Assembly (NCBI GenBank): GCA_945906795.1
Contig: CAMDRO010000011.1
Location: 1 to 49,652 of the forward strand
Source of the DNA: Spirosoma fluviale
GTDB taxonomy: Bacteria > Bacteroidota > Bacteroidia > Cytophagales > Spirosomataceae
DNA length: 49,652 bases
Reading direction: 5' to 3'
Shown here: positions 37,103 through 48,923 of the stretch, in pieces
Layout of the letters: the number at the start of each line of letters is the position of its first letter
How positions within the stretch are numbered: position 1 is the stretch's first letter
Translations under genes and position numbers: made by a program
Notes under the pieces: model-generated
Databases searched by the model: none
What the model saw: the letters and a program-made list of their open reading frames with translations, nothing else
Told to the model about the DNA's origin: nothing

Positions 37103-37879
37103 GATTTTTATTAAAATGTACTACAATGAAAGGTTAAGCAACAAATTTAGTGATTAAAAAACAAATAGGAAGAACAAGTGTAACTCATTATCAAAACTTA
37201 ATGTTAGCCGTGTTCATCAATCAAAAACAATGGTCGACCTTTAGTCTTGGAGCCATTAAAATGAGTATTGTATGTACCATGAATTTTGTTTCAAATGTCA
37301 TTTCGTTAATTATTTTAAGTAACATATAAGAAAAGTGAATAAACCGCTTGCCTGATTGGATTTATATGGAACTCCTATCATGATGCTATATTTCAAAATC
37401 AAACCCAACCCTATCGAATCTTAATCAGATCAAAACTAAACCAGATTAATCTATTTGTATTTTTTAATTTTTGAAAGACATGAATACCGAATGAAATAGG
37501 ATGGCCTTGCTTATTTGCTGCTATTCTTAAAATGGGATTTGTTTTATTTAAAATGAAATTAATGCTAAATTCGAATCAGCACGAAACACTCCTTAAGAAA
37601 ATACCAATTAGTTTGACGACCTACACTTGGATGATCTTCAGCTTTTGTGCTTTTCACCATTTGCGTCTGATTGTGCTCATATTTCTTAAATTTAGTGACT
37701 TTTTAATAAGTCAAACTATTTCTAAAATTTGTACAGCTATTTAGGGGGCTAGGACAATATATCAATTACTGGATTTATGTTAAGCTGGACAAAACGATCG
37801 TCATCTATCATAAACTAGTTGTCGGAGTGTATAATTAATTCAATTTGCAAATTATTTGCGTAATTTAATAGTCACTACT
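37103..37879. other. Gene-poor spacer, about 780 bp
   Basis: No gene supported. A 70-codon plus-strand frame at 37532-37744 is rich in hydrophobic residues but has no recognisable similarity, and a minus-strand stop-free run overlaps it (with AEDHPSVGRQTNWYFLK); both are more likely remnants or chance. A copy of the dispersed repeat lies at 37401-37451. The promoter of the acylase gene should be near the right end. Confidence 0.5.
37401..37451 (-). repeat. Dispersed repeat, copy A
   Basis: About 50 bp matching copy B at 40562-40610 along most of its length (shared cores AACCCTATCG-ATCTTAA and ATCAAAAC-AAACCA). On the minus strand both can be read in the same frame as G-L-V-L-I-x-L-R-[F/Y]-D-R-V-G-F, with most differences synonymous; copy A has TGA in place of the Arg codon. 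Confidence 0.6.
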
Positions 37880-40333
37880 ATGAACCTTATGAAAAATCAG
37901 CTAAAGTACTTTTTTAAAATAACCCTGCGCTCATTTATATTATTGGCTTTTACTATAAGTGCTTCCCTATTATCTGCGCAAAATGCTACATCAGTAAGTA
38001 CAAAAAAATCACATTTAAATGTTCGAGGACTAGTCGATAAAGTTGAAGTACTTAGAGATCAGTGGGGCGTGAATCATATCTATGCCCAAAATGAACATGA
38101 TTTGTTTTTTACACAAGGATATTGTGCAGCAAAAGATAGATTATTTCAATTTGAAGTATGGAGAAGACAAGCTACTGGGACCACTGCAGAAATTTTAGGA
38201 GAAAGAGAATTAAAAAGAGATATAGGTACTCGATTATTTCAATATCGAGGTAATCTCCAAAAAGATCTAGAAAGGTATCATCCACGAGGGGTCTCTATTA
38301 TTAATGCTTATGTTCAAGGAGTGAATGCTTATATTAAAGAAATAAACCTAAGCCCTAGTCGCTTACCTATTGAATTTAAATTATTACATATTCAGCCCAA
38401 AGAATGGACTGCATCAATAGTGATATCAAGACATCAGGGTTTATTAGGTAATATCACACAAGAACTAAATATAGCAAGAGCTGTGGCCAAAGTAGGGGAA
38501 GAAAAAGTAAAAGATATTGTTTGGTTTCATCCTAAACAACCAAATCTTAAATTGGATACTGCAATAAACGCTTCCTTATTGGAAAAGGATATACTTGAAC
38601 TTTATCATGCATATCGCAATGAATTAGTATTCCAAAAATCTGATTTTAGAGAAATAGACAAAGATGCGGTAATGCATAAGTCAGTAGTTCCTGAAAAAGA
38701 TTTGTTTTTACAAAGTCAAGAAATGGAGGGAAGTAATAATTGGATTATTGCAGGAAGTAGATCAGCAAGTGGGTATCCATTATTAGCTAATGATCCTCAC
38801 AGAAAAGTGGCATTACCTTCTTTAAGATATATTGTGCATTTAGTGGCACCAGGATGGAATGTAATTGGAGGGGGAGAACCTGAAATACCTGGTGTATCCA
38901 TTGGGCATAACGAAAAAGGGGCTTGGGGTTTAACTATTTTTGAAACCGATGGAGAGGATCTATATGTGTATGATTTAAATAAAAATAATTTAAATCAATA
39001 TTGGTATAAAGGCAGTTGGATGAACATGCGTACCATTCAGGACAGTATCCAAGTTAAAAATAGTACTACAGTTAAAGTTGAATACAAGTATGGAGTTCAT
39101 GGTCCAATTTGTTATATTGATTCAGTCAATCACAAGGGCTATGCTGTAAAAGCAGCATGGCTGGAGCCAGGGGGTGCTCCTTATCTTGCTTCATTAAGAA
39201 TAGACCAAGCTACGGACTGGGAAAGCTTTAGAGAAGCCTGCACATTCAGTCATATCCCCGGAGAGAATATGATATGGGCCGACAAAAAAGGAAATATCGG
39301 TTGGCAAGTAGTAGGCATTGTGCCAATAAGAAAAAACTTTAGTGGATATGTACCTGTGCCTGGTGATGGTCGATATGAATGGGCTGGTTTTTTACCTATC
39401 AAAGAAAGACCACATCAATTGAATCCCAAGGAAGGTTTTTTTGCCACAGCTAATCAAAATGTAACACCAAAGGATTATAAAAGATGGGACGCAGTTGGAT
39501 ATACTTGGACAGACCCATTTAGAGGAGATCGGATTAATCAAGTACTTACATTAAATGAAAAAATGGATCTTTCCGCTATGGGTGCTTTACAAACAGATTA
39601 TTTTTCCATTCCAGCTAGTAAAATAGTACCCTTGTTAAATAATATTATAGTTACAGATAGCAATTTGTTAGCAGCAAAAAATTATTTAATTAATTGGGAT
39701 TTTGTGTTAGATAAAAATAGTATTCCTGCAGGTATTTATGCGGCATGGGAAAAAGAAATTGCTGTTATGTGTAGCAATTTATTTATTCCAGCAAGTGTTA
39801 AAAATAATATTAGCCTTCAAATGAGTAGCATTATAAAAAGATTAGAAAACCCAACTGTTTATTTTGGTGATCAAGCTTTTGAAAAAAGAGATGCCTTATT
39901 AACAAAAGCATTAGAAAAAGCAGTGCTCGCATTAAATAAAAAATTAGGAATGAAGATGGAAGATTGGCAGTATGGACAAGCAAAATATAAACATATTACC
40001 TTAGAACATCCATTAGCTTCTTTGGTGAGTTTAGAAATGCAAAAACAACTTAATCTTGGGCCTTTGCCCAGAGGAGGAAGTGGACATACACCCGGGGCTA
40101 CCGGTGCTACAGACAATCAAATGAGTGGAGCAAGTTTTAGATTATTAATAGATACTAAAGATTGGAATAAAACGCTAATGATTAATAGTCCAGGTCAATC
40201 AGGGGACCCGAGTAGTCCCTATTATCGTAACTTATTTGAAATATGGGCCAATGATCAATATTTCCCGGCATATTATTCAAAAACGCTTATTCAAAAAGTG
40301 AGTACTGAACAATTAATTCTAAAACCACATTAA
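37880..40333 (+). CDS. Exported penicillin-acylase-family (Ntn) hydrolase
   Basis: About 817 aa from the ATG at 37880 (another ATG at 37889; the frame is open to a TTG at 37856). A signal peptide (SFILLAFTISASLLSA) is followed by the alpha-chain region (VEVLRDQWGVNHIYAQNEHD, FTQGYCAAKDRLFQFE). The beta-chain nucleophile Ser is expected at SNNWIIAGSRSASG (EGSNNW, about residue 290), after which LLANDPHRKVALPS and GVSIGHNEKGAWGLT follow. The enzyme would mature by self-cleavage and hydrolyse amides such as acyl-homoserine lactones or beta-lactams; the natural substrate is unknown. Codon use differs from neighbouring genes (nearly all AGA for Arg, TTA for Leu), a sign of transfer. Confidence 0.88.
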   Translation: MNLMKNQLKYFFKITLRSFILLAFTISASLLSAQNATSVSTKKSHLNVRGLVDKVEVLRDQWGVNHIYAQNEHDLFFTQGYCAAKDRLFQFEVWRRQATGTTAEILGERELKRDIGTRLFQYRGNLQKDLERYHPRGVSIINAYVQGVNAYIKEINLSPSRLPIEFKLLHIQPKEWTASIVISRHQGLLGNITQELNIARAVAKVGEEKVKDIVWFHPKQPNLKLDTAINASLLEKDILELYHAYRNELVFQKSDFREIDKDAVMHKSVVPEKDLFLQSQEMEGSNNWIIAGSRSASGYPLLANDPHRKVALPSLRYIVHLVAPGWNVIGGGEPEIPGVSIGHNEKGAWGLTIFETDGEDLYVYDLNKNNLNQYWYKGSWMNMRTIQDSIQVKNSTTVKVEYKYGVHGPICYIDSVNHKGYAVKAAWLEPGGAPYLASLRIDQATDWESFREACTFSHIPGENMIWADKKGNIGWQVVGIVPIRKNFSGYVPVPGDGRYEWAGFLPIKERPHQLNPKEGFFATANQNVTPKDYKRWDAVGYTWTDPFRGDRINQVLTLNEKMDLSAMGALQTDYFSIPASKIVPLLNNIIVTDSNLLAAKNYLINWDFVLDKNSIPAGIYAAWEKEIAVMCSNLFIPASVKNNISLQMSSIIKRLENPTVYFGDQAFEKRDALLTKALEKAVLALNKKLGMKMEDWQYGQAKYKHITLEHPLASLVSLEMQKQLNLGPLPRGGSGHTPGATGATDNQMSGASFRLLIDTKDWNKTLMINSPGQSGDPSSPYYRNLFEIWANDQYFPAYYSKTLIQKVSTEQLILKPH

Positions 40334-40590
40334 ATTTAATTAAAGAAAATGGGCTAAATTTAAATATAAAAAGAAAAGCCTTTATAAAAAATTCAGCAAT
40401 AACAGCATTTGGCGAAATGTAAGAAAGCAATGATTGAGAATTAAATCAGAGATCGTTAGAATTCAATAAATAACAAAGTTTGCTACCACTCCTGCTACCG
40501 AACTCGTAAAATAAAAGAAACCACTCGGCCTGAGTGGTTTTTTTTACCGTACGGTTTAAGGAAACCCTACCCTATCGTATCTTAAACGTA
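40334..40590. other. Spacer of 257 bp between the acylase gene and the orfA fragment
   Basis: Contains the terminator at 40518-40545, the palindrome ACCGTACGGT at 40546-40555 and the start of repeat copy B. No tRNA or protein gene was found. Confidence 0.5.
40518..40545. terminator. Intrinsic terminator
   Basis: A perfect 9-bp stem (AAACCACTC / GAGTGGTTT) with a 5-base loop and a run of eight T on the plus strand; the other side (TTTCTTTTATTTT on the minus strand) makes it usable both ways. It is 185 bp after the acylase stop and just left of the palindrome ACCGTACGGT. Confidence 0.85.
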
Positions 40591-40610
40591 TCAAAACCAA
40601 ACCACTAAAT
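40562..40610 (-). repeat. Dispersed repeat, copy B
   Basis: The copy joined to the 3' end of the IS3 orfA fragment. On the minus strand it reads G-L-V-L-I-R-L-R-Y-D-R-V-G-F-P-stop in the frame supported by comparison with copy A. It is followed on that strand by the palindrome ACCGTACGGT (40546-40555). Confidence 0.6.
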
Positions 40611-40989
40611 CAGCTAAGGTCTCTTTGAGTTTAAGGTTCTCTTTGCGAAGATCAGCGACCTCATCACTGGTGGCTTCTCGGGTTAGATCTCCAGATAATC
40701 GCTTCTTGCCAGCCTCTAAGAATTCTTTGTTCCACTTGTAAAAGGTAGACTCTTGGATCGAATGTTTTCTACATAATTCTGCAATGGAACTCTCGGCTCG
40801 TAAAGCCTCCATGATGATTTGAATCTTCTGCTCGGAACTAAAAATACGACGTGTCTTTCGACGAATGTCTTTGATGTAATTTTCTGCTGTTTGTTTTTTT
40901 CTTGTTTCCATTTTGTTAAGTTAATAATTGTTTGGAAACACTCCCTAAGAAATAGACTCTATCGGTCCACTTTTTGCTGACGATTTACA
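40591..40989 (-). mobile_element. IS3-family insertion sequence fragment with truncated orfA
   Basis: The frame 40591-40911 (106 codons) encodes the N-terminal part of an IS3-type OrfA: RIFSSEQKIQIIMEALRAES, SIAELCRKHSIQESTFYKWN (helix-turn-helix), then EVADLRKENLKLKETLADLV (leucine zipper). The reading then ends abruptly in VWF-stop, where intact OrfA continues and overlaps orfB; orfB is missing. Upstream of the ATG, the sequence reading TGTAAATCGTCAGC on the minus strand at about 40989 could be the terminal inverted repeat. The element has lost its transposase catalytic part and cannot move on its own. Confidence 0.85.
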
Positions 40990-41035
40990 GTGTTTGATGT
41001 AATACGACTGTTTTGATTACTGCCCAACTTTAGAG

Positions 41036-41346
41036 ATGAACCATAATCATATGAAAATGCACGCACGCGCACTCATTTTTTTGTTAGCCTCATTTTTATT
41101 CATCTCTTGTTCGGGTGTACGATATATTAGTAGCGAACCCAGGCATGTAGAAATAATAAGGCCTAGACAGCCCAGCTTTCACATATCTGGATCGATGGAG
41201 ATTGAATGTGGCAAAGAGACACGAGAACGTATAAAAATAGTAAAGGACGCTGGGTGATACCCAATCGCAATCGAAATTACAGCTCAGGCTATTGGGAAAA
41301 GAGAAAAAAAGGAAAACGTTGGGTAACTGAAAAGTGGCATAAGTAA
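41036..41346 (+). pseudogene. Decayed YXWXXGXW-type lipoprotein gene
   Basis: The ATG frame encodes a lipoprotein signal (ALIFLLASFLFISCSG, lipobox Cys) and continues to about 41180. The conserved body then shifts to another frame: HIWIDGD, then TGA in place of a Trp codon, then MWQRDTRTYKNSKGRWVIPN, with SSGYWEKRKKGKRWVTEKWH ending in TAA at 41346. The repeated W/Y/G spacing (SGYW, GRWV, KRWV) is that of YXWXXGXW-repeat lipoproteins of Bacteroidota. At least one frameshift and one stop are needed to explain it, so the gene is broken. Start in the original frame: ATG at 41036 or 41051. Confidence 0.65.
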
Positions 41347-41479
41347 GTTGATTTTTGTCAATAGAAATAGTACACTTTTGAGAAGAAATTAATATTTATA
41401 GGGATTTAATAGCCATTTGGAAGTAGATTGAATAAATGTTTCGATCTATAGATTAAATTCAGTATTCAATCGACGTAAA

Positions 41480-42343
41480 ATGATTCAAAAATCCACCATA
41501 CAATTATTGCGAATTCCGTTTAGCTTTTTTCTAATGCCCGTTTATTGGTTTGCCCTGAGTATAACCAGCCAAATCGATTATACGCGGGCTGTTGGGGTTT
41601 TTATCCTTTTGCATGTATTCCTTTACCCCGCGAGCAATGGTTACAATAGTTATAACGATAGAGATACGGAAAGCATTGGGGGACTTGTCAAACCCATGCT
41701 GCCAACCAAGCAATTGTATTACCTGACGCTCGCTTTGGATTTGATTGGATTTGCATTTTCTTTTGTTATTAGTTCTGTATTTGCTGCTTGCTTTCTCTTT
41801 TTTATCATCTGTTCCAGGTTATATAGTTGGCGCGGCTTGCGACTCAAGCAATATCCCATTTTAGGGTATTTTTTGGTTATCCTCAATCAAGGTACGTTGG
41901 TGTTTTTTGCGATCGCACATGGTGTGAGTAGTCACCTGACGATGGAAGTCTCTTTTTTATTGTTATTGGCTGCCGGATTATTAATTGGCGGATTTTACCC
42001 CATCACCCAAATTTACCAGCACGTCCAAGACCGAAATGATGGTGTTCATACGATTTCGATGCTACTAGGAAAACGAGGTACGTTTATTTTTTGTAGCATC
42101 CTCTATTTACTCGCTTTCATTTGTCTGTTCCTGTATTTTCAATCCAAGCTGATGTTGGCCCATTTTTGGGTGATTCAGCTATTTTTTGTTCCAGTGGTTT
42201 TATACTTTTTGAATTGGATGGTAGCCGTATGGAAAAATCCATCAAAAGCTGATTTCAAGAACACCATGCGCATGGTTTGGCTCGCGAGTACTTCTACTAA
42301 TTTGGCATTTATCACTTTATTTATTTTGAACCATTTTGGCTGA
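41480..42343 (+). CDS. UbiA-family membrane prenyltransferase-like protein
   Basis: A 287-aa protein with about eight to nine membrane helices. The first polar motif reads NGYNSYNDRDTESIGGLVKP and the second QIYQHVQDRNDGVHT. Aligned with the UbiA pattern N-D-x-x-D-x-x-x-D and D-x-x-x-D, the first motif has Ser and Glu at two Asp positions and the second has Gln at the first Asp, while D-R-x-x-G is kept. The fold is clear; prenyl transfer is likely but the acceptor and donor are not known. It is the first gene of a four-gene operon: its last 8 bp overlap the type III PKS frame. Confidence 0.8.
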   Translation: MIQKSTIQLLRIPFSFFLMPVYWFALSITSQIDYTRAVGVFILLHVFLYPASNGYNSYNDRDTESIGGLVKPMLPTKQLYYLTLALDLIGFAFSFVISSVFAACFLFFIICSRLYSWRGLRLKQYPILGYFLVILNQGTLVFFAIAHGVSSHLTMEVSFLLLLAAGLLIGGFYPITQIYQHVQDRNDGVHTISMLLGKRGTFIFCSILYLLAFICLFLYFQSKLMLAHFWVIQLFFVPVVLYFLNWMVAVWKNPSKADFKNTMRMVWLASTSTNLAFITLFILNHFG

Positions 42344-43421
42344 TATCATATCTATAGCAACATCAAGTCCGGCTTTTGCACATAAGCAAGAAGCTATTTT
42401 GCAATACATGCAAAAAGCCTATCAGTTAGGTGCAGAAGAAAAAAGGAAGCTAGCTTTTCTGTATCATCATAGTGGTATAGAAAAAAGGCACTCTGTAATT
42501 CCCGATTTTGGCAACAAGGTAACTGACTTGAATTTTTTACCTCAAGACGCTACTGATCCATTTCCTTCTATAGATGAAAGAATGGAATTGTATAAAAGTA
42601 AAGCTTCCACGATCTCCATTGAAGCAATAAAGAAATGCATTGATAAACATATTAATGCTGCTCAAATTACGCATCTAATTACCATTAGTTGCACCGGTAT
42701 GAGTGCCCCAGGATTAGATTTAGAAATTATGGAGGAGATGAATTTATCGCCTGCTTTATTTCGAACGTCTATTAATTTTATGGGATGTTATGCAGCCATA
42801 CATGGGTTGAAATTGGCAAAATTTATTTGTGATAGTGAGCCAGATGCACAGGTTGTAATAGTTGCCATCGAATTATGTACGTTACACTTTCAGAAAGAGT
42901 ATACCATCGAAAATGTATCAAGTAGTCTTTTATTTGCCGATGGAGCAGCAGCCGTTTTGATAAGTAATACACTTACTAGTCCAAAAGCATTGAAGATCGA
43001 AAGTTTTTATTCGCAAGTTGCATTTGAAGGTAAAAAAGACATGGCTTGGGAGATGAGTAGCAAAGGCTTTTTAATGACCCTAAGTAGTTATATTCCACAA
43101 CTTATTAAAAAAGATATTGAATTGTTGGTAGTTGCTGCACTAAAGCAAAAAGGAATAACCCACGCTGAAATTGCTTATTGGTGTATTCATCCAGGTGGCA
43201 AAAAAATCGTGGATGTGATTGAACAAAAATTGTCTTTAACTGGGGAACAAACAAAGTTCGCTAGAAAAGTTTTAGCCGAAAATGGAAATATGTCGTCTCC
43301 AACCATCCTATTTGTTCTAAAGGAAATTATGGATTCATCTATTCAATCAGCAGAGAAAATTTTTGGGATTGCATTTGGTCCAGGGCTAACGATGGAAACC
43401 TTTTTATGCAAAAAAATATAA
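42336..43421 (+). CDS. Type III polyketide synthase (chalcone synthase-like)
   Basis: A 361-aa homodimeric-type ketosynthase. Catalytic residues: Cys in INFMGCYAAIHGLKLA, His in YWCIHPGGKKIVD, Asn in AENGNMSSPTILFVL. THLITISCTGMSAPGLDLEI and LLFADGAAAVLISN are further signatures. Bacterial relatives extend fatty acyl-CoA with malonyl-CoA to alkylresorcinols or alkylpyrones. The only starts available are TTG at 42336 (or ATT one codon earlier), since a stop lies at 42327-42329 and the first ATG is 25 codons inside, past a conserved segment (ISIATSSPAFAH). The TTG overlaps the UbiA stop by 8 bp, so translation is coupled. It uses no carrier protein. Confidence 0.93.
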   Translation: MADIISIATSSPAFAHKQEAILQYMQKAYQLGAEEKRKLAFLYHHSGIEKRHSVIPDFGNKVTDLNFLPQDATDPFPSIDERMELYKSKASTISIEAIKKCIDKHINAAQITHLITISCTGMSAPGLDLEIMEEMNLSPALFRTSINFMGCYAAIHGLKLAKFICDSEPDAQVVIVAIELCTLHFQKEYTIENVSSSLLFADGAAAVLISNTLTSPKALKIESFYSQVAFEGKKDMAWEMSSKGFLMTLSSYIPQLIKKDIELLVVAALKQKGITHAEIAYWCIHPGGKKIVDVIEQKLSLTGEQTKFARKVLAENGNMSSPTILFVLKEIMDSSIQSAEKIFGIAFGPGLTMETFLCKKI

Positions 43422-43431
43422 TCCTACATCA

Positions 43432-44130
43432 ATGAATTTAGAAAAAAGATCTTATCAAAAGGAATTACTCGACGGGGATAACATTCCCTTTGCAGATATT
43501 GCACAAACGATGCGTGAACTCAATACCATTAATACATTATTGGGGGGACATGCCATTACGTTAGATGGGTTTAAGCAATTAGTAAAAGATAAAAAAGAAA
43601 TTACTGTTTGCGAAATAGGTTGCGGAGGGGGAGACAATTTGGTGGCCATCGTCAAATACTGTCAAGAAAATAACATCAAAATACATTGTATTGGCATTGA
43701 TTACAATGCCGAATGCATTGATTTTGCCAAACAAAATGTATGCCTGAAAGACTTTACTACATTCATTTGTAGCGACTATGCAAAAGTAAATTTTGAAAGT
43801 AAACCTGATATTATTTTTTCCAGTTTATTTTGCCATCATTTCACCGACGAGGAGTTAGTATTACAACTTAAGTGGATGAAGGCGAATACTAGACTGGGAT
43901 TTTTTATCAATGATTTACAACGTCATTGGTTGGCTTATAATTTGATACATTTCCTAACTCAGGTGTTTTCAAAATCCTATCTTGTAAAAAACGATGCCTC
44001 TTTAAGTGTGGCTAGGGGTTTCAAAAAATGGGAATGGCAATTGCTTTTTTCAAAAGCTGGAATCGCCAACTACCATATTTCATGGAAATGGGCATTCAGG
44101 TATTTAATCGTTAAAGAACAGACTGCTTAA
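43432..44130 (+). CDS. SAM-dependent methyltransferase (class I)
   Basis: A 232-aa enzyme. The SAM site is VCEIGCGGGDNLVAIVKYC (motif I), with HCIGIDYNAECIDFA (motif II, acidic residue) and DIIFSSLFCHHFTDEELV (post-motif). The overall build resembles methyltransferases that sit behind type III PKS genes (SrsB-like, O- or C-methylation of phenolic lipids), although no specific acceptor can be read. It begins 11 bp after the PKS gene and its stop shares a base with the next ATG (TAATG). Confidence 0.87.
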   Translation: MNLEKRSYQKELLDGDNIPFADIAQTMRELNTINTLLGGHAITLDGFKQLVKDKKEITVCEIGCGGGDNLVAIVKYCQENNIKIHCIGIDYNAECIDFAKQNVCLKDFTTFICSDYAKVNFESKPDIIFSSLFCHHFTDEELVLQLKWMKANTRLGFFINDLQRHWLAYNLIHFLTQVFSKSYLVKNDASLSVARGFKKWEWQLLFSKAGIANYHISWKWAFRYLIVKEQTA

Positions 44131-45263
44131 TGAACAAGGAATTTGATATAGTCATTATCGGAGGCGGTCTTGCTGGATTAAGTCTTTCCATTCAGTGCGC
44201 AGAAGCAGGTTATAGCACCTTATTATTTGAAAAGGAAAATTATCCCTTTCATAAAGTTTGTGGCGAATACATTAGCAATGAATCTCTACCCTTTTTAGAA
44301 CAACTAGGGGTACCTCTTTCCACCTGGGGGCTACCGAGCATCACTGATTTACATATATCTGCACCTAATGGAACTGGCTATCAATTCACCTTACCTTTAG
44401 GGGGCTTTGGCGTGAGTCGCTATAAACTAGATCAATATTTGTATAAAATTGCCTTAAGTAAAGGTGTTACCGTGCTGACAAATACGAAAGTACAGGATAT
44501 TCATTTTACACAAAACCATTTTGAAATTACCTCGGACAAAGGCAGCTATCAGAGTAATATAGCTGCGGGTAGTTTTGGTAAAAAGAGCAATTTGGATGTT
44601 CATTTATCACGTCCTTTTGCAAAGGCAAGGCCCAATGCTTTGAATAATTTTATTGGCGTCAAATACCATATTCGATATCCTCATCCATCCAATCAAGTTG
44701 CCTTACACAATTTTGACAACGGCTATTGTGGTATCGAAGAGATTGAAAATGGGGAGTGTTGCTTATGCTATTTAACCACGGCAGACAACTTAAAAAAATC
44801 GGGAAATAGTATTCCTGCGATGGAGGAAAATATTTTACAAAAGAATCCATTATTGAAACACATCTTCACTAATGCGGAGTTTATTCATACAAAGCCCCTT
44901 ACCATCACCCAAATAAGTTTTCAAAAAAAATCTCAGATAGAAAATCATATCTTATGCGTAGGCGATGCGGCGGGGATGATTACGCCACTCTGCGGAAATG
45001 GAATGAGCATTGCGTTGCATGGCAGCAAAATTGCCTTTCAAAATATTGATTATTATTTTAAGCATGGACAAAATAGAGCAGCCTTAGAAACTGCCTATGA
45101 AAAGCAGTGGCAAAAGCAATTTGCCAATAGAATTTTTGTGGGTAGAACCATTCAACGCCTTTTTGGCAATGCCCGTATCACCAATTTGTTTTTACAAATC
45201 ATGCACTTTCTTCCAAGGCTTTCCAAAAAATTAATCAGAGCAACTCACGGCCATGCTTTTTAA
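44130..45263 (+). CDS. FAD-dependent oxidoreductase, geranylgeranyl-reductase/hydroxylase type
   Basis: A 377-aa flavoprotein. The N-terminal dinucleotide fold is DIVIIGGGLAGLSLSIQCAE followed by FEKENYPFHKVCGEYISNE; the second FAD motif is LCVGDAAGMITPLCGNGMSI. This is the GGR/aromatic hydroxylase group, which includes alkylresorcinol hydroxylases (SrsC in Streptomyces) and prenyl reductases. It may hydroxylate the phenolic product to a quinol, or reduce a prenyl chain if the UbiA neighbour attaches one. Last gene of the operon, coupled by TAATG to the methyltransferase. Confidence 0.88.
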   Translation: MNKEFDIVIIGGGLAGLSLSIQCAEAGYSTLLFEKENYPFHKVCGEYISNESLPFLEQLGVPLSTWGLPSITDLHISAPNGTGYQFTLPLGGFGVSRYKLDQYLYKIALSKGVTVLTNTKVQDIHFTQNHFEITSDKGSYQSNIAAGSFGKKSNLDVHLSRPFAKARPNALNNFIGVKYHIRYPHPSNQVALHNFDNGYCGIEEIENGECCLCYLTTADNLKKSGNSIPAMEENILQKNPLLKHIFTNAEFIHTKPLTITQISFQKKSQIENHILCVGDAAGMITPLCGNGMSIALHGSKIAFQNIDYYFKHGQNRAALETAYEKQWQKQFANRIFVGRTIQRLFGNARITNLFLQIMHFLPRLSKKLIRATHGHAF

Positions 45264-46198: not shown

Positions 46199-47248
46199 AT
46201 GGCTACATCAAATTCCTCCACCCCGGGAACTAATTTGCTTTCCGTCTTTCTCCATACTTTATTAGTTGCTCTTTGGGGACTATTTTCCTTCTTAGTCTAC
46301 AACTCGCTTGACTACGAAAAAAGTGCTTCTGCTGATTCAACTACTATTTATATGCAGCCAGACTCTAATTTTACTCACGTTTGGACTGCACCATCTGACT
46401 GGCGGATGATGTATTTATCGCCAGAGGAAAAGGAGTTAGTGCTTTATGGAAAAGAATTAATAGTCCATACCTCTGCTTATTTGGGCCCAAAGGGTTCTGT
46501 AAAGGCGATTTCGAATGGGATGAATTGCCAAAATTGCCACTTAAATGCAGGAACCCAACCTTGGGGAAATAATTATTTTGCTGTTCAGTCTATTTATCCA
46601 AAGTTTAGAGCCCGTTCTGGAGCCATTGAAGATCAGGTGAAGCGGGTTAATGACTGTTTTGAACGTAGCTTAAATGGACAAGCTTTAGTAGCCGATAGCA
46701 AGGAGATGCGGGGTATTTTAGCCTATATTAAGTGGATAGGAACCGATGTGGCGAAAGGAAAGGCTCCCAAGGGGTCAGGAATTTTTAAATTAAAAGGCTT
46801 AAAAAGAGCCATCGAACCCACGAAAGGAGCAGAAGTATATGCGGCAAAATGCCAGTCATGTCACCAAGCAGATGGAGGGGGCGTATTAGCTGAAGGGGGT
46901 AAATCGTATACGTATCCACCGCTTTGGGAATCCCATAGTTATAATCACGGGGCAGGTCTCTACCGTATGTCTAACTTTGCGGGCTATGTGAAATACAATA
47001 TGCCATTAGGGGCTACTTACGAGAAGCCGCAATTAAGTGATGAAGAGGCTTGGGATGTGGCGGCATATGTTAACTCTATGCCTAGACCTGAGAAAGATTT
47101 ATCTAAAGATTGGCCAGATATTTCGGGTAAGCCGTTTGACCATCCTTTTGGTCCTTATGCGGATCCTTTCCCAGCATCTCAACATAAATATGGTCCATAT
47201 AAACCTATCAAGGAGTGGATCAAGAAACACAAAAAATCAAAAAGCTAA
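46199..47248 (+). CDS. Membrane-anchored diheme cytochrome c, TsdA-like
   Basis: A 349-aa protein with an uncleaved N-terminal membrane helix (LLSVFLHTLLVALWGLFSFL). Two heme c sites are present: NCQNCHLNAG near residue 112 and KCQSCHQADGG near residue 220. RVNDCFERSLNGQAL between them and KYNMPLGATYEKPQLSDEEA after the second site match thiosulfate dehydrogenase TsdA/SoxA-like cytochromes. It probably faces the periplasm and oxidises thiosulfate (to tetrathionate in TsdA) or passes electrons from a Sox-type reaction. It is 4 bp before the SoxB-like gene, so the two should work together. Confidence 0.8.
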   Translation: MATSNSSTPGTNLLSVFLHTLLVALWGLFSFLVYNSLDYEKSASADSTTIYMQPDSNFTHVWTAPSDWRMMYLSPEEKELVLYGKELIVHTSAYLGPKGSVKAISNGMNCQNCHLNAGTQPWGNNYFAVQSIYPKFRARSGAIEDQVKRVNDCFERSLNGQALVADSKEMRGILAYIKWIGTDVAKGKAPKGSGIFKLKGLKRAIEPTKGAEVYAAKCQSCHQADGGGVLAEGGKSYTYPPLWESHSYNHGAGLYRMSNFAGYVKYNMPLGATYEKPQLSDEEAWDVAAYVNSMPRPEKDLSKDWPDISGKPFDHPFGPYADPFPASQHKYGPYKPIKEWIKKHKKSKS

Positions 47249-47252
47249 ACCG

Positions 47253-48923
47253 ATGAACTCTAGAAGAAAATTTTTACAAGGCGGACTCCTGACTGGTGTA
47301 GCTGCGTTATCACCCATAGCTTCTTCGGAAGCTAAAGTGGCTTATATGCATTCAAATCCAGCAAAGCCTAGTTCTGGTCAAATTACTATTTTACAAACAA
47401 CGGATGTGCATTGCCAATTGCATGCACATGATGAGTTGTTTTGGGAAAAGGATAAACTCGTATTTCGCAAAGCGGGTGGCTATGCACACATGGCTACGGC
47501 TTTAGATCGCATGAAGCAGGCCAATCCGGAGAATACCATTACACTCGATACGGGGGATATGTTCCAAGGTTCCATGCTTTCGGTGAAAACAACTGGCCAG
47601 GCTTTTGTCCCTTTGTTGAATGCCATGAATTATGATTTATACTTACCGGGCAACTGGGAAGTTGTGTATTATAAAAAGAACATGCAGAAATTATTGGGAG
47701 GCTTGTTGGCCCCTAAGATTTGTGCGAATATGTACCACGATTTAGGGGATGGCAAGAAAGGGGAGTTGATCTTTCAGCCGTATCAAATTATCCATCGTTT
47801 AGGAGTTAAAATTGGTTTCTTAGGTTACACGGACCCCTTAGTACCGCTTCGTCAATCACCGCTGTATAGTAAGGGTATTTTATATACCAAACCGGAAGAA
47901 AATCTACAAGAATATGTCACGCTTTTACGAGAGCAGGAGCAATGTGATTTTGTCATTATCCTATCTCACTTAGGTCTCTCCCAACAAATTGCGTTAGGTA
48001 ATAACCCTCATTGCCAAGGTGTTGATTATATTTTTGGAGCGGATACGCATGAACGGGTACGTAAACCTATTCAAGCAGAATATACGAAAATTGTTGAGCC
48101 TGGAGCTTTTGGCTCTTTTATAGGCAAGTTAGATATTCAGGTCAAAAACGGGAAAGTTTCTGGATCTACATACGAATTAGTCGAGGTAGATCCCATAAAA
48201 TATCCAGCTAAAAAGGAGATATTAAACTTAGTAAATGAGTTAGAAGGTCCATTGAAGTCTGAAATTGATAAAGTGTTAGGCTATAGTACCTTGCCTTTAT
48301 ATCGAAATTTTGTGGTTGAAAATACCATAGATACGCTGATTGTAGATGCCTTAAAATGGAAGGTCAATGCGGATGTTGTATTGTCCAATGGTTTCCGATT
48401 CTGTCCGCCACGCGTTCCTGGGAAGAACGGAAAAGTGGCGATTACAGAAGGCTATTTGTATGACATGTTGCCAGTGGATTCGACGATTCGGACGGCGAAG
48501 GCGACGGGCCTACAAATCATGAATTGGTTAGAGAAGGAATTACAGAATGTATTTGCACAGGATGCTTCCTTGCGTTTTGGCGGTTGGTTTATCCGTTTCA
48601 AAGGAATGCAAGTTGAGTTTAAAGCATTTGAACGAGTAGGACATCGGGTTCAAAAAGTCATTATTGGCGGTGCACCCTTAGAGCTTGAAAAGTCGTATGT
48701 ATTGTGTGCTTGTGAGCGTGATGGAGATCCGGAGGATATGCTTTGCCGCATGAAAGGGGTGAAGGAAGCTAAGAATACAGCTTATACATTACATAGCATG
48801 ATGAAAGAGTATCTGGCTAAATTCTCACCCGTGACACCAACCTTACGTCATGATGCCAAAATACTTGATGGTCCACAGTCATTGTTGAGCCAGGTAACGG
48901 GTGTGGATTACTCCTTTCGTTAG
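47253..48923 (+). CDS. soxB: SoxB-like thiosulfohydrolase / 5'-nucleotidase-family metalloenzyme
   Basis: A 556-aa protein from the ATG at 47253; the open frame to 47037 only overlaps the cytochrome gene. A Tat-like signal opens it (SRRKFLQGGLLTGVAALSP). The metallophosphatase core has LQTTDVHCQLH, LDTGDMFQGS, PGNWEVVYYK, ILSHLGLS and GADTHERVRKP as dimetal ligand regions; GNWE (rather than GNHE) is a SoxB trait. The C-terminal domain runs through RFGGWFIRFKGM and CACERDGDPEDMLC. SoxB removes sulfate from a sulfane carried on SoxYZ in periplasmic thiosulfate oxidation. An Asp stands where the HxH pair of many relatives has its first His, and no soxYZ is in view, so a nucleotidase role remains possible. 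Confidence 0.75.
   Translation: MNSRRKFLQGGLLTGVAALSPIASSEAKVAYMHSNPAKPSSGQITILQTTDVHCQLHAHDELFWEKDKLVFRKAGGYAHMATALDRMKQANPENTITLDTGDMFQGSMLSVKTTGQAFVPLLNAMNYDLYLPGNWEVVYYKKNMQKLLGGLLAPKICANMYHDLGDGKKGELIFQPYQIIHRLGVKIGFLGYTDPLVPLRQSPLYSKGILYTKPEENLQEYVTLLREQEQCDFVIILSHLGLSQQIALGNNPHCQGVDYIFGADTHERVRKPIQAEYTKIVEPGAFGSFIGKLDIQVKNGKVSGSTYELVEVDPIKYPAKKEILNLVNELEGPLKSEIDKVLGYSTLPLYRNFVVENTIDTLIVDALKWKVNADVVLSNGFRFCPPRVPGKNGKVAITEGYLYDMLPVDSTIRTAKATGLQIMNWLEKELQNVFAQDASLRFGGWFIRFKGMQVEFKAFERVGHRVQKVIIGGAPLELEKSYVLCACERDGDPEDMLCRMKGVKEAKNTAYTLHSMMKEYLAKFSPVTPTLRHDAKILDGPQSLLSQVTGVDYSFR

Follow-up and report, generated by a model that had tools for sequence, protein, structure and literature searches.

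The four adjoining genes at positions 41480-45263 of a 49,652-nucleotide Spirosoma fluviale contig (the whole stretch analysed, hereafter the window) form an operon that, on balance, probably builds a prenylated phenolic lipid as the agq pathway of Actinoplanes does. This reading draws on the identities of the genes, the predicted folds of the UbiA homologue and the flavoprotein, the catalytic triad of the type III polyketide synthase (PKS), co-inheritance, and a DNA-level fusion in relatives. An earlier note on this DNA had described an operon of UbiA, type III PKS, methyltransferase and flavoprotein genes, and the open reading frames (ORFs) and Pfam families confirm that composition. The features discussed below are:

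40591-40911, minus strand: lone HTH_Tnp_1 transposase ORF, upstream of the operon (ORF and family match)
41480-42343, plus strand: UbiA-fold prenyltransferase homologue, 287 aa, ATG start (ORF, Pfam, motifs, predicted fold)
42336-43421, plus strand: type III PKS, 361 aa, TTG start (ORF, Pfam, triad, tree)
43432-44130, plus strand: class I SAM-dependent methyltransferase, 232 aa, ATG start (ORF, Pfam, NCBIfam)
44130-45263, plus strand: FAD-dependent oxidoreductase of the halogenase/GG-reductase/PHBH fold group, 377 aa, ATG start (ORF, Pfam, predicted fold)

The previously noted 8-bp and 1-bp overlaps are correct, but the gap given as 11 bp measures 10 bp in the ORF coordinates (43422-43431), where it separates the PKS from the methyltransferase. 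Because of the overlaps, we infer that the four genes are one translational unit. A promoter scan was uninformative, with 11 hits versus 22.0 in shuffles. In a scan of named genomes, the UbiA gene adjoins the PKS gene in 10/10 loci, and all four genes occur in identical order in the six loci with DNA long enough (in the remaining four, the DNA stops inside or ahead of the missing genes); the arrangement is therefore not due to chance. The 8-bp UbiA/PKS overlap is retained in the called ORF coordinates of L035-L045, L094, and L095. Among 150 genomes of the family (the window's own included), 104 have a UbiA relative, and every one of these 104 also has the PKS. The main-type PKS is present in 109 genomes, the 109/12 split of PKSs excluding G021, a weak PKS match. 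It is accompanied by the flavoprotein in 106 of the 109 and by the methyltransferase in 59; the methyltransferase was not found in the other 50, which counts against our preferred reading and means that it is not a constant member of the set. The UbiA and PKS genes of these family genomes are often unlinked, a class that takes in genes lying on separate contigs where an assembly is fragmented. The co-occurrence in related genomes that had been proposed as a check is seen, even where the genes are unlinked.

In the pathway that we favor, the PKS would add malonyl units to a fatty acyl starter and close the ring to an alkylresorcinol, the methyltransferase would methylate either the ring or its phenol group, the flavoprotein would hydroxylate the ring to give a (methoxy)hydroquinone that could be oxidised to a quinone, and the UbiA enzyme would join an isoprenoid to the aromatic product in the membrane. 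Here, we infer every substrate, the order of the steps, and the product. The earlier note's idea of a PKS/methyltransferase/flavoprotein set resembling srs, joined by a UbiA-fold partner, agrees with the families and folds.

It is possible, though rather unlikely, that the product is instead a polyketide quinone electron carrier like that of pkq, with the UbiA enzyme adding a membrane anchor; the chemistry would be much as proposed above, and the role would lie in respiration rather than in a structural or defensive lipid. Three-gene operons of the srsABC/pkqABC type, encoding a PKS, a methyltransferase, and an oxidoreductase, are described in the cited part of one report as yielding alkyl benzoquinones, which act as alternate electron carriers when oxygen is low (PMC9927152). 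The presence of the PKS in 109/150 family genomes would suit a standing trait more than a sporadic metabolite, and a cytochrome c gene begins 935 bp past the operon. However, the ORFs of 50 other clustered loci include no relative of this cytochrome, and the genus of the window can dispense with the PKS, which 37 of its 38 genomes lack.

The methyltransferase ORF matches Methyltransf_31 at 45.9 bits (cut-off 27), with PRK06202 as its best NCBIfam (121.3 of 243 bits). The flavoprotein ORF matches FAD_binding_3 at 39.9 bits (cut-off 22); its CGEY and GD..G...PL.GNGM segments are invariant in 26 aligned sequences, and its predicted fold matches the PHBH-type hydroxylases over the whole chain. Its best fold matches in the prediction are halogenases, which counts against the preferred reading, and we consider it unlikely that the protein is no ring hydroxylase and either halogenates the ring or reduces the prenyl chain (compare the dihydrogeranyl tail of the agq products). 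Flavin-dependent halogenases are marked by a catalytic Lys after a GES-type segment and by a WxWxIP-type motif. The flavoprotein has no Lys in residues 60-97 and has Trp only at 66 and 327, and it scores just 97.9 of the 158.8 bits set for the geranylgeranyl reductase family GG-red-SF in NCBIfam.

The PKS has both Chal_sti_synt domains (N, 85.9 bits; C, 96.7 bits; cut-offs 27) and the Cys-His-Asn triad C151/H285/N318, kept in 59/59 aligned rows, and is thereby a type III PKS. We placed it in a quick tree, with SH-aLRT support only, of 56 of the 84 collected locus sequences plus three PDB segments (L105, L113, and L118 are absent from the rows because their PKS ORF was missed in picking). The window PKS falls in a 45-row set together with PKSs of PKS/methyltransferase/flavoprotein cassettes; the RppA-, PhlD-, and DpgA-context rows lie outside this set, the DpgA-context row on a long branch of unsure position. 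The RppA-context row L156, which has a cupin and a P450 gene adjoining and which we take from that context to be RppA, groups with the PhlD rows. The window PKS does not group with L156, so that the tree does not support tetrahydroxynaphthalene synthase, a grouping that the earlier note had said would tell against a phenolic lipid.

An alkylpyrone or a small phenol of the phloroglucinol or dihydroxyphenylacetyl type, in place of a resorcinolic lipid, strikes us as a quite improbable product. It is favored by the best NCBIfam for the PKS, which is DpgA (147.9 of 425 bits) and no lipid synthase, and by the best PDB chains: 4b0n (155.4 bits) overall and Pks18 among bacterial ones. Pks18 is a pyrone synthase and EsPKS1 (4b0n) a phloroglucinol synthase, and both belong to the same 45-row set as the window PKS; these matches count against the resorcinol reading. 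On the other hand, the PhlD- and DpgA-context rows (the latter of unsure position) are outside that set, no enoyl-CoA hydratase occurs among the scanned window neighbors, and the window PKS has W238 where Pks18 and 4b0n have L. W238 sits at the CHS-256 column and is compatible with alkylresorcinol synthase identity, the match to the ArsB W281 column being weak, as PKS11 and the CHS position were the sole guides to that column. The same column is also W in PKS11, an alpha-pyrone synthase by its PDB name, in the DpgA-context row, and in rows that have isoprenylcysteine-type methyltransferases as neighbors, so W238 is no proof of a resorcinol. Since the Pks18 tunnel residue A209 is replaced by F, a long-chain tunnel in the window PKS is only putative. 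The ArsC structure 3VS8, through which the W281 column was also sought, did not appear in the best 60 rows of three PDB searches.

The UbiA ORF matches PF01040 at 64 bits (cut-off 34.2) and, with its predicted fold, belongs to the UbiA superfamily. UbiA proteins carry two Asp-rich motifs, of which the second has the form DxxxD. The cited part of one report gives NxxxDxxxD for the first, with DYFDD as an example of the second (PMC4044012). The window protein has N56-x3-D60 plus D62 in the first and YPxTQxYQHxxD (Q180, D184) in the second. In an alignment of 29 of 43 sequences (42 listed plus the window's), N56, D60, D62, and D184 are invariant, and likewise Y173, P174, T176, Q177, Y179, and H181; YQH is also present in the 32 rows of a separate UbiA row set. 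The second motif reads QxxxD in 29/29, Gln replacing its first Asp, which counts against the preferred reading. This Gln also distinguishes the window UbiA from the archaeal structures 4tq4 (A. fulgidus) and 4od4 (A. pernix), to which it is 17-19% identical. Of the three other UbiA genes in the genome, L002 has DxxxD; a motif-pattern search found no second motif in L004 and neither motif in L001. A plasmid search with the UbiA sequence gave nothing at E 0.01.

In one genus, 10 of 14 genomes have UbiA and PKS, at the DNA level, within a single open frame of 652-653 residues, so the two very probably work together. We doubt strongly that the UbiA homologue is no aromatic prenyltransferase, with the Gln marking another reaction or the protein being a membrane scaffold that holds the PKS. 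The constancy of Q180 amid invariant residues and the DxxxD of L002 are in keeping with another reaction, and the fusion might suggest that the PKS is held. However, all four of N56, D60, D62, and D184 are invariant, Gln could ligate metal through its carbonyl, the predicted fold matches prenyl-diphosphate-binding UbiA proteins, and AgqD offers a precedent (PMC7692728, PMC3227686).

Horizontal transfer from another Bacteroidota order probably brought the operon into this genome, as the PKS is absent from all but one of the 38 genomes of the genus and nests in the tree among PKSs of another order. The HTH_Tnp_1 transposase ORF is a possible trace of the transfer; inspection by eye of ORFs of at least 60 aa in 40334-41479 showed no second transposase-like ORF, and a search for repeats flanking the operon found only short imperfect pairs. 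GC content (operon genes 0.348-0.395, kdsA 0.436, whole window 0.374) is not decisive for transfer. The foreign DNA may extend beyond the operon, because the acylase-like neighbor (37892-40330) has, apart from its own gene, a best match of 31% identity across 30 further genomes of the genus. A chimeric contig is a conceivable alternative to transfer; against it, kdsA, which shares the contig, was found in 7 of 9 same-genus genomes and is 83-92% identical in those 7. For the genomes of L035, L036, L042, and L044, whose place is accordingly tentative, KdsA matches were all weak (E about 1e-4), and in the outgroup (G075 plus two f2 genomes) they reached just 38-50%.

If the preferred reading is true, a large bacterial family makes a fatty phenol-isoprenoid hybrid, whose product and role are predicted from genes; such a hybrid might serve as a redox lipid of the membrane or as part of the envelope. 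The fusion offers a direct handle on whether a type III PKS passes its product to a prenyltransferase, and the QxxxD subfamily bears on the extent to which UbiA enzymes depend on the second Asp motif. A bolder proposal, which we hold to be improbable, is that Bacteroidota have a widespread undescribed lipoquinone with a PKS-derived head and an isoprenoid tail added by the QxxxD UbiA, serving as a second redox carrier beside menaquinone, and that the fusion hands the nascent phenol to the prenyltransferase at the membrane.

Several known systems share parts of this gene set. The srsABC operon of Streptomyces griseus and the pkqABC operons of Mycobacterium smegmatis and Streptomyces sp. MNU77 likewise comprise PKS, methyltransferase, and hydroxylase/oxidoreductase genes; the cited part of the report on this three-gene machinery does not mention a prenyltransferase, which the window has (PMC9927152). 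The same three enzyme types are found in hidABC of cyanobacteria (hierridins) and in a Planctomycetota operon, whose PKS products are reported as alkylresorcinols (PMC10896814). Unlike in the window, their usual order is methyltransferase, oxidoreductase, PKS, and in the cited part of the literature a prenyltransferase, its type not given, is mentioned for one Raphidiopsis cluster only (PMC8086630). In the losA region of Micromonospora endolithica (loseolamycins), genes for UbiA, a methyltransferase, and a type III PKS lie near one another, as in the window, but an acyl-CoA dehydrogenase gene lies between the methyltransferase and the PKS, and its gene-table passage holds no FAD hydroxylase-type gene (PMC7587189). 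Flavobacteriaceae gene clusters include type III PKS clusters, according to the cited part of another report (PMC7440613). We found no description of a UbiA-PKS set in Bacteroidota in the literature searched, consulted in part and mostly outside subscription journals.

As in the agq cluster, where agqB to agqD adjoin the type III PKS gene agqA, the window has type III PKS, methyltransferase, FAD enzyme, and UbiA genes in one cluster, agqB being the methyltransferase and agqC the flavoprotein gene. In the cited parts of two reports, agqABCD of Actinoplanes missouriensis, with orthologues in Phytohabitans, makes alkyl-O-dihydrogeranyl-methoxyhydroquinones, and AgqD is a UbiA-like O-prenyltransferase of the alkyl-methoxyhydroquinone (PMC7692728, PMC3227686). 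Given this pairing of a type III PKS with a UbiA-like enzyme, the word "undescribed" in the earlier interpretation was too strong; its gene set, co-occurrence, and non-tetrahydroxynaphthalene PKS are supported. Unlike agq, which is from Actinomycetota, the window operon is in Bacteroidota and has its UbiA gene first, and the likeness is one of gene types alone. Relative to agq, what appears to be new is the Bacteroidota lineage, the QxxxD UbiA subfamily, and the UbiA-PKS fusion, the literature search having covered the gene set rather than the fusion.

The operon genes, assigned by Pfam, and the transposase ORF near them are as follows:

40591-40911, lone transposase ORF, upstream of the operon
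41480-42343, +, UbiA
42336-43421, +, type III PKS (Chal_sti_synt)
43432-44130, +, class I methyltransferase
44130-45263, +, FAD-dependent oxidoreductase (flavoprotein)

ORF coordinates give the 8 bp and 1 bp overlaps described in an earlier note, with one gap of 10 bp in place of its 11 bp; UbiA and the PKS, which share the 8 bp overlap, are separate genes here. As the genome has three further UbiA-family genes at other loci, the operon's UbiA is not its sole candidate lipoquinone prenyltransferase. A cytochrome c gene with a SoxA/TsdA-type domain (46199-47248) starts 935 bp past the operon; behind it comes a 5'-nucleotidase-family gene, whose domains fall within 47253-48920.

We scanned named genomes and obtained ten loci from Bacteroidota records, with PKSs 56-87% identical to the window's. 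UbiA adjoins the PKS in all ten, and the four-gene order is the same in all six whose DNA reaches far enough. A PKS match occurs in 122 of 150 genomes sampled from the window's family (its own among them): 109 matches belong to the main type, 12 to a divergent one, and that of G021 is weak. The earlier expectation of co-occurrence in related genomes is borne out by this order and by the family counts, which are raw and uncorrected for kinship: all 104 genomes with a UbiA relative carry a main-type PKS. The flavoprotein occurs in 119 genomes and the methyltransferase in 72, which cover 106 and 59, respectively, of the 109 with the main type. Only 28 of the 109 have all three partners at most 4.5 kb from the PKS, and in 38 UbiA is distant or on another contig, so this co-inheritance is not solely a linkage effect. 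A PKS was matched at E <= 1e-20 in 157 of 345 genomes sampled across the phylum (the window's and two others of its family included), and UbiA at >=144 bits in 23, every one of which has the PKS; nine more UbiA matches (59.7-76.7 bits) all belong to a single family, f23. The window's gene order is present in all five genomes fetched from f5, a family that by computed kinship shares the window's class and belongs to a different order.

In g32, a genus of the window's family, search tables show a single open frame of 653-682 codons spanning UbiA and PKS in ten genomes. Fetched DNA bears this out: 14 g32 genomes with a main-type PKS were sampled, and in 10 of them no stop codon separates UbiA from the PKS. 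The relatives G145, G142, G112 and G064 are unfused. The fusion proteins (L160-L169; 652-653 residues) are 72-99% identical to one another. In the eight junctions printed, the last UbiA helix is joined directly to the PKS N-terminus with no linker, and a TTG codon able to start the PKS is retained, so a separate PKS may also be made. Judged from sequence, this natural fusion of a membrane enzyme with a PKS is a direct tie between the two activities.

Within the window's genus, the PKS was found in one of 38 genomes, the window's only. In a 30-genome tree of KdsA, encoded on the same contig, the window groups with its own genus (91% identical to G099; support 99/95), and the genomes that carry loci L037-L041 and L043 fall together with the f5 genome G325 (7 rows, 100/99); KdsA gave no placement for those of L035, L036, L042 and L044. 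Yet the PKSs of L037-L041 and L043 are 79-82% identical to the window's, those of most other family members only 37-49%, and in the PKS tree the window sits inside a 12-row group (support 99) with rows from f5, G109 and SZAS-21. The simplest reading is that the operon was gained horizontally in the window's genome; the lone transposase ORF before it may be a trace of this. A gene at 37856-40333, by eye resembling a penicillin-acylase-family hydrolase, may also be foreign, since the closest match to it among 30 other genomes of the genus reaches 31% identity. Plasmid 5 of Psychrobacter urativorans (NZ_CP012711.1, L114) encodes a 41% identical PKS with convergent FAD and methyltransferase genes; the place of this gammaproteobacterial PKS inside a Bacteroidota tree set suggests inter-phylum transfer.

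The PKS triad (C151, H285, N318) is kept in all 59 aligned rows. In a 59-row tree built by a quick method, the window PKS falls within a set of 35 rows (SH-aLRT 99), all from Bacteroidota except for one Psychrobacter plasmid, nested in a 45-row set (SH-aLRT 96) that also holds PKSs of PKS/methyltransferase/FAD gene sets from Deinococcus, Mesorhizobium and Paludisphaera, as well as Pks18, a Nocardia row and EsPKS1. Neither the PhlD- and DpgA-context rows nor those adjoining isoprenylcysteine-type methyltransferases belong to this larger set. The RppA-context row is excluded as well: the grouping with tetrahydroxynaphthalene (THN) synthases that the earlier note held to be fatal to its phenolic-lipid proposal does not appear, and the tree argues against a THN synthase. 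Membership of the 45-row set cannot alone pick between resorcinol, pyrone and phloroglucinol. At T144, C205 and A209, which we take to be three tunnel residues of Pks18, the aligned window PKS retains the first two and has F at the third. W238 is W in all aligned main-type Bacteroidota rows, and also in PKS11, the DpgA-context row and the isoprenylcysteine-methyltransferase rows; the column holds L in Pks18, EsPKS1 and a plant pyrone synthase, and Y in THN synthase. We infer that it corresponds to ArsB W281, linked to resorcinol closure in a review (PMC6274091).

UbiA is present in none of the 12 family genomes with the divergent PKS. At L081-L084 and L112 such a PKS, about 28% identical, adjoins a methyltransferase, with a flavoprotein beside it in all except L083. 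A ketosynthase-type gene lies nearby in L081-L084 (Pfam on L083), an SDR in L082-L084 (Pfam on L082), and small ORFs close by resemble ACP, dehydratase and phosphopantetheinyl transferase by eye. Recurrent neighbours, typed by ORF clustering with Pfam on one member each, are YceI (L048, L059, L080), YHS (L049, L050, L059, L064, L080), DoxX (L048, L049, L050, L064) and Crp (L048, L059); YceI proteins bind isoprenoid lipids. At the g32 loci L068, L071 and L074 the cassette adjoins carotenoid genes: SQS_PSY, lycopene cyclase and an amino-oxidase-type flavoprotein, typed by Pfam at L071 and by clustering at the other two.

No description of a UbiA-PKS-methyltransferase-FAD set in Bacteroidota was found in the literature searched. 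In the agqABCD cluster, agqB and agqC are presumably the methyltransferase and flavoprotein. According to PMC7692728 and PMC3227686, agqABCD already combines a type III PKS with a UbiA-like O-prenyltransferase, as the window operon pairs a PKS with a UbiA-like enzyme, and 'undescribed', which the earlier note proposed for the pathway, is too strong a word. The srs/pkq sets (PMC9927152) and hid-type sets (PMC10896814, PMC8086630) share the PKS, methyltransferase and oxidoreductase but, in the excerpts available of these sources, lack UbiA, except for one Raphidiopsis hid-type cluster with a prenyltransferase (PMC8086630). The operon appears to be a variant of an already known PKS/UbiA kind of cluster, a likeness to agq drawn from its description rather than from agq sequences.
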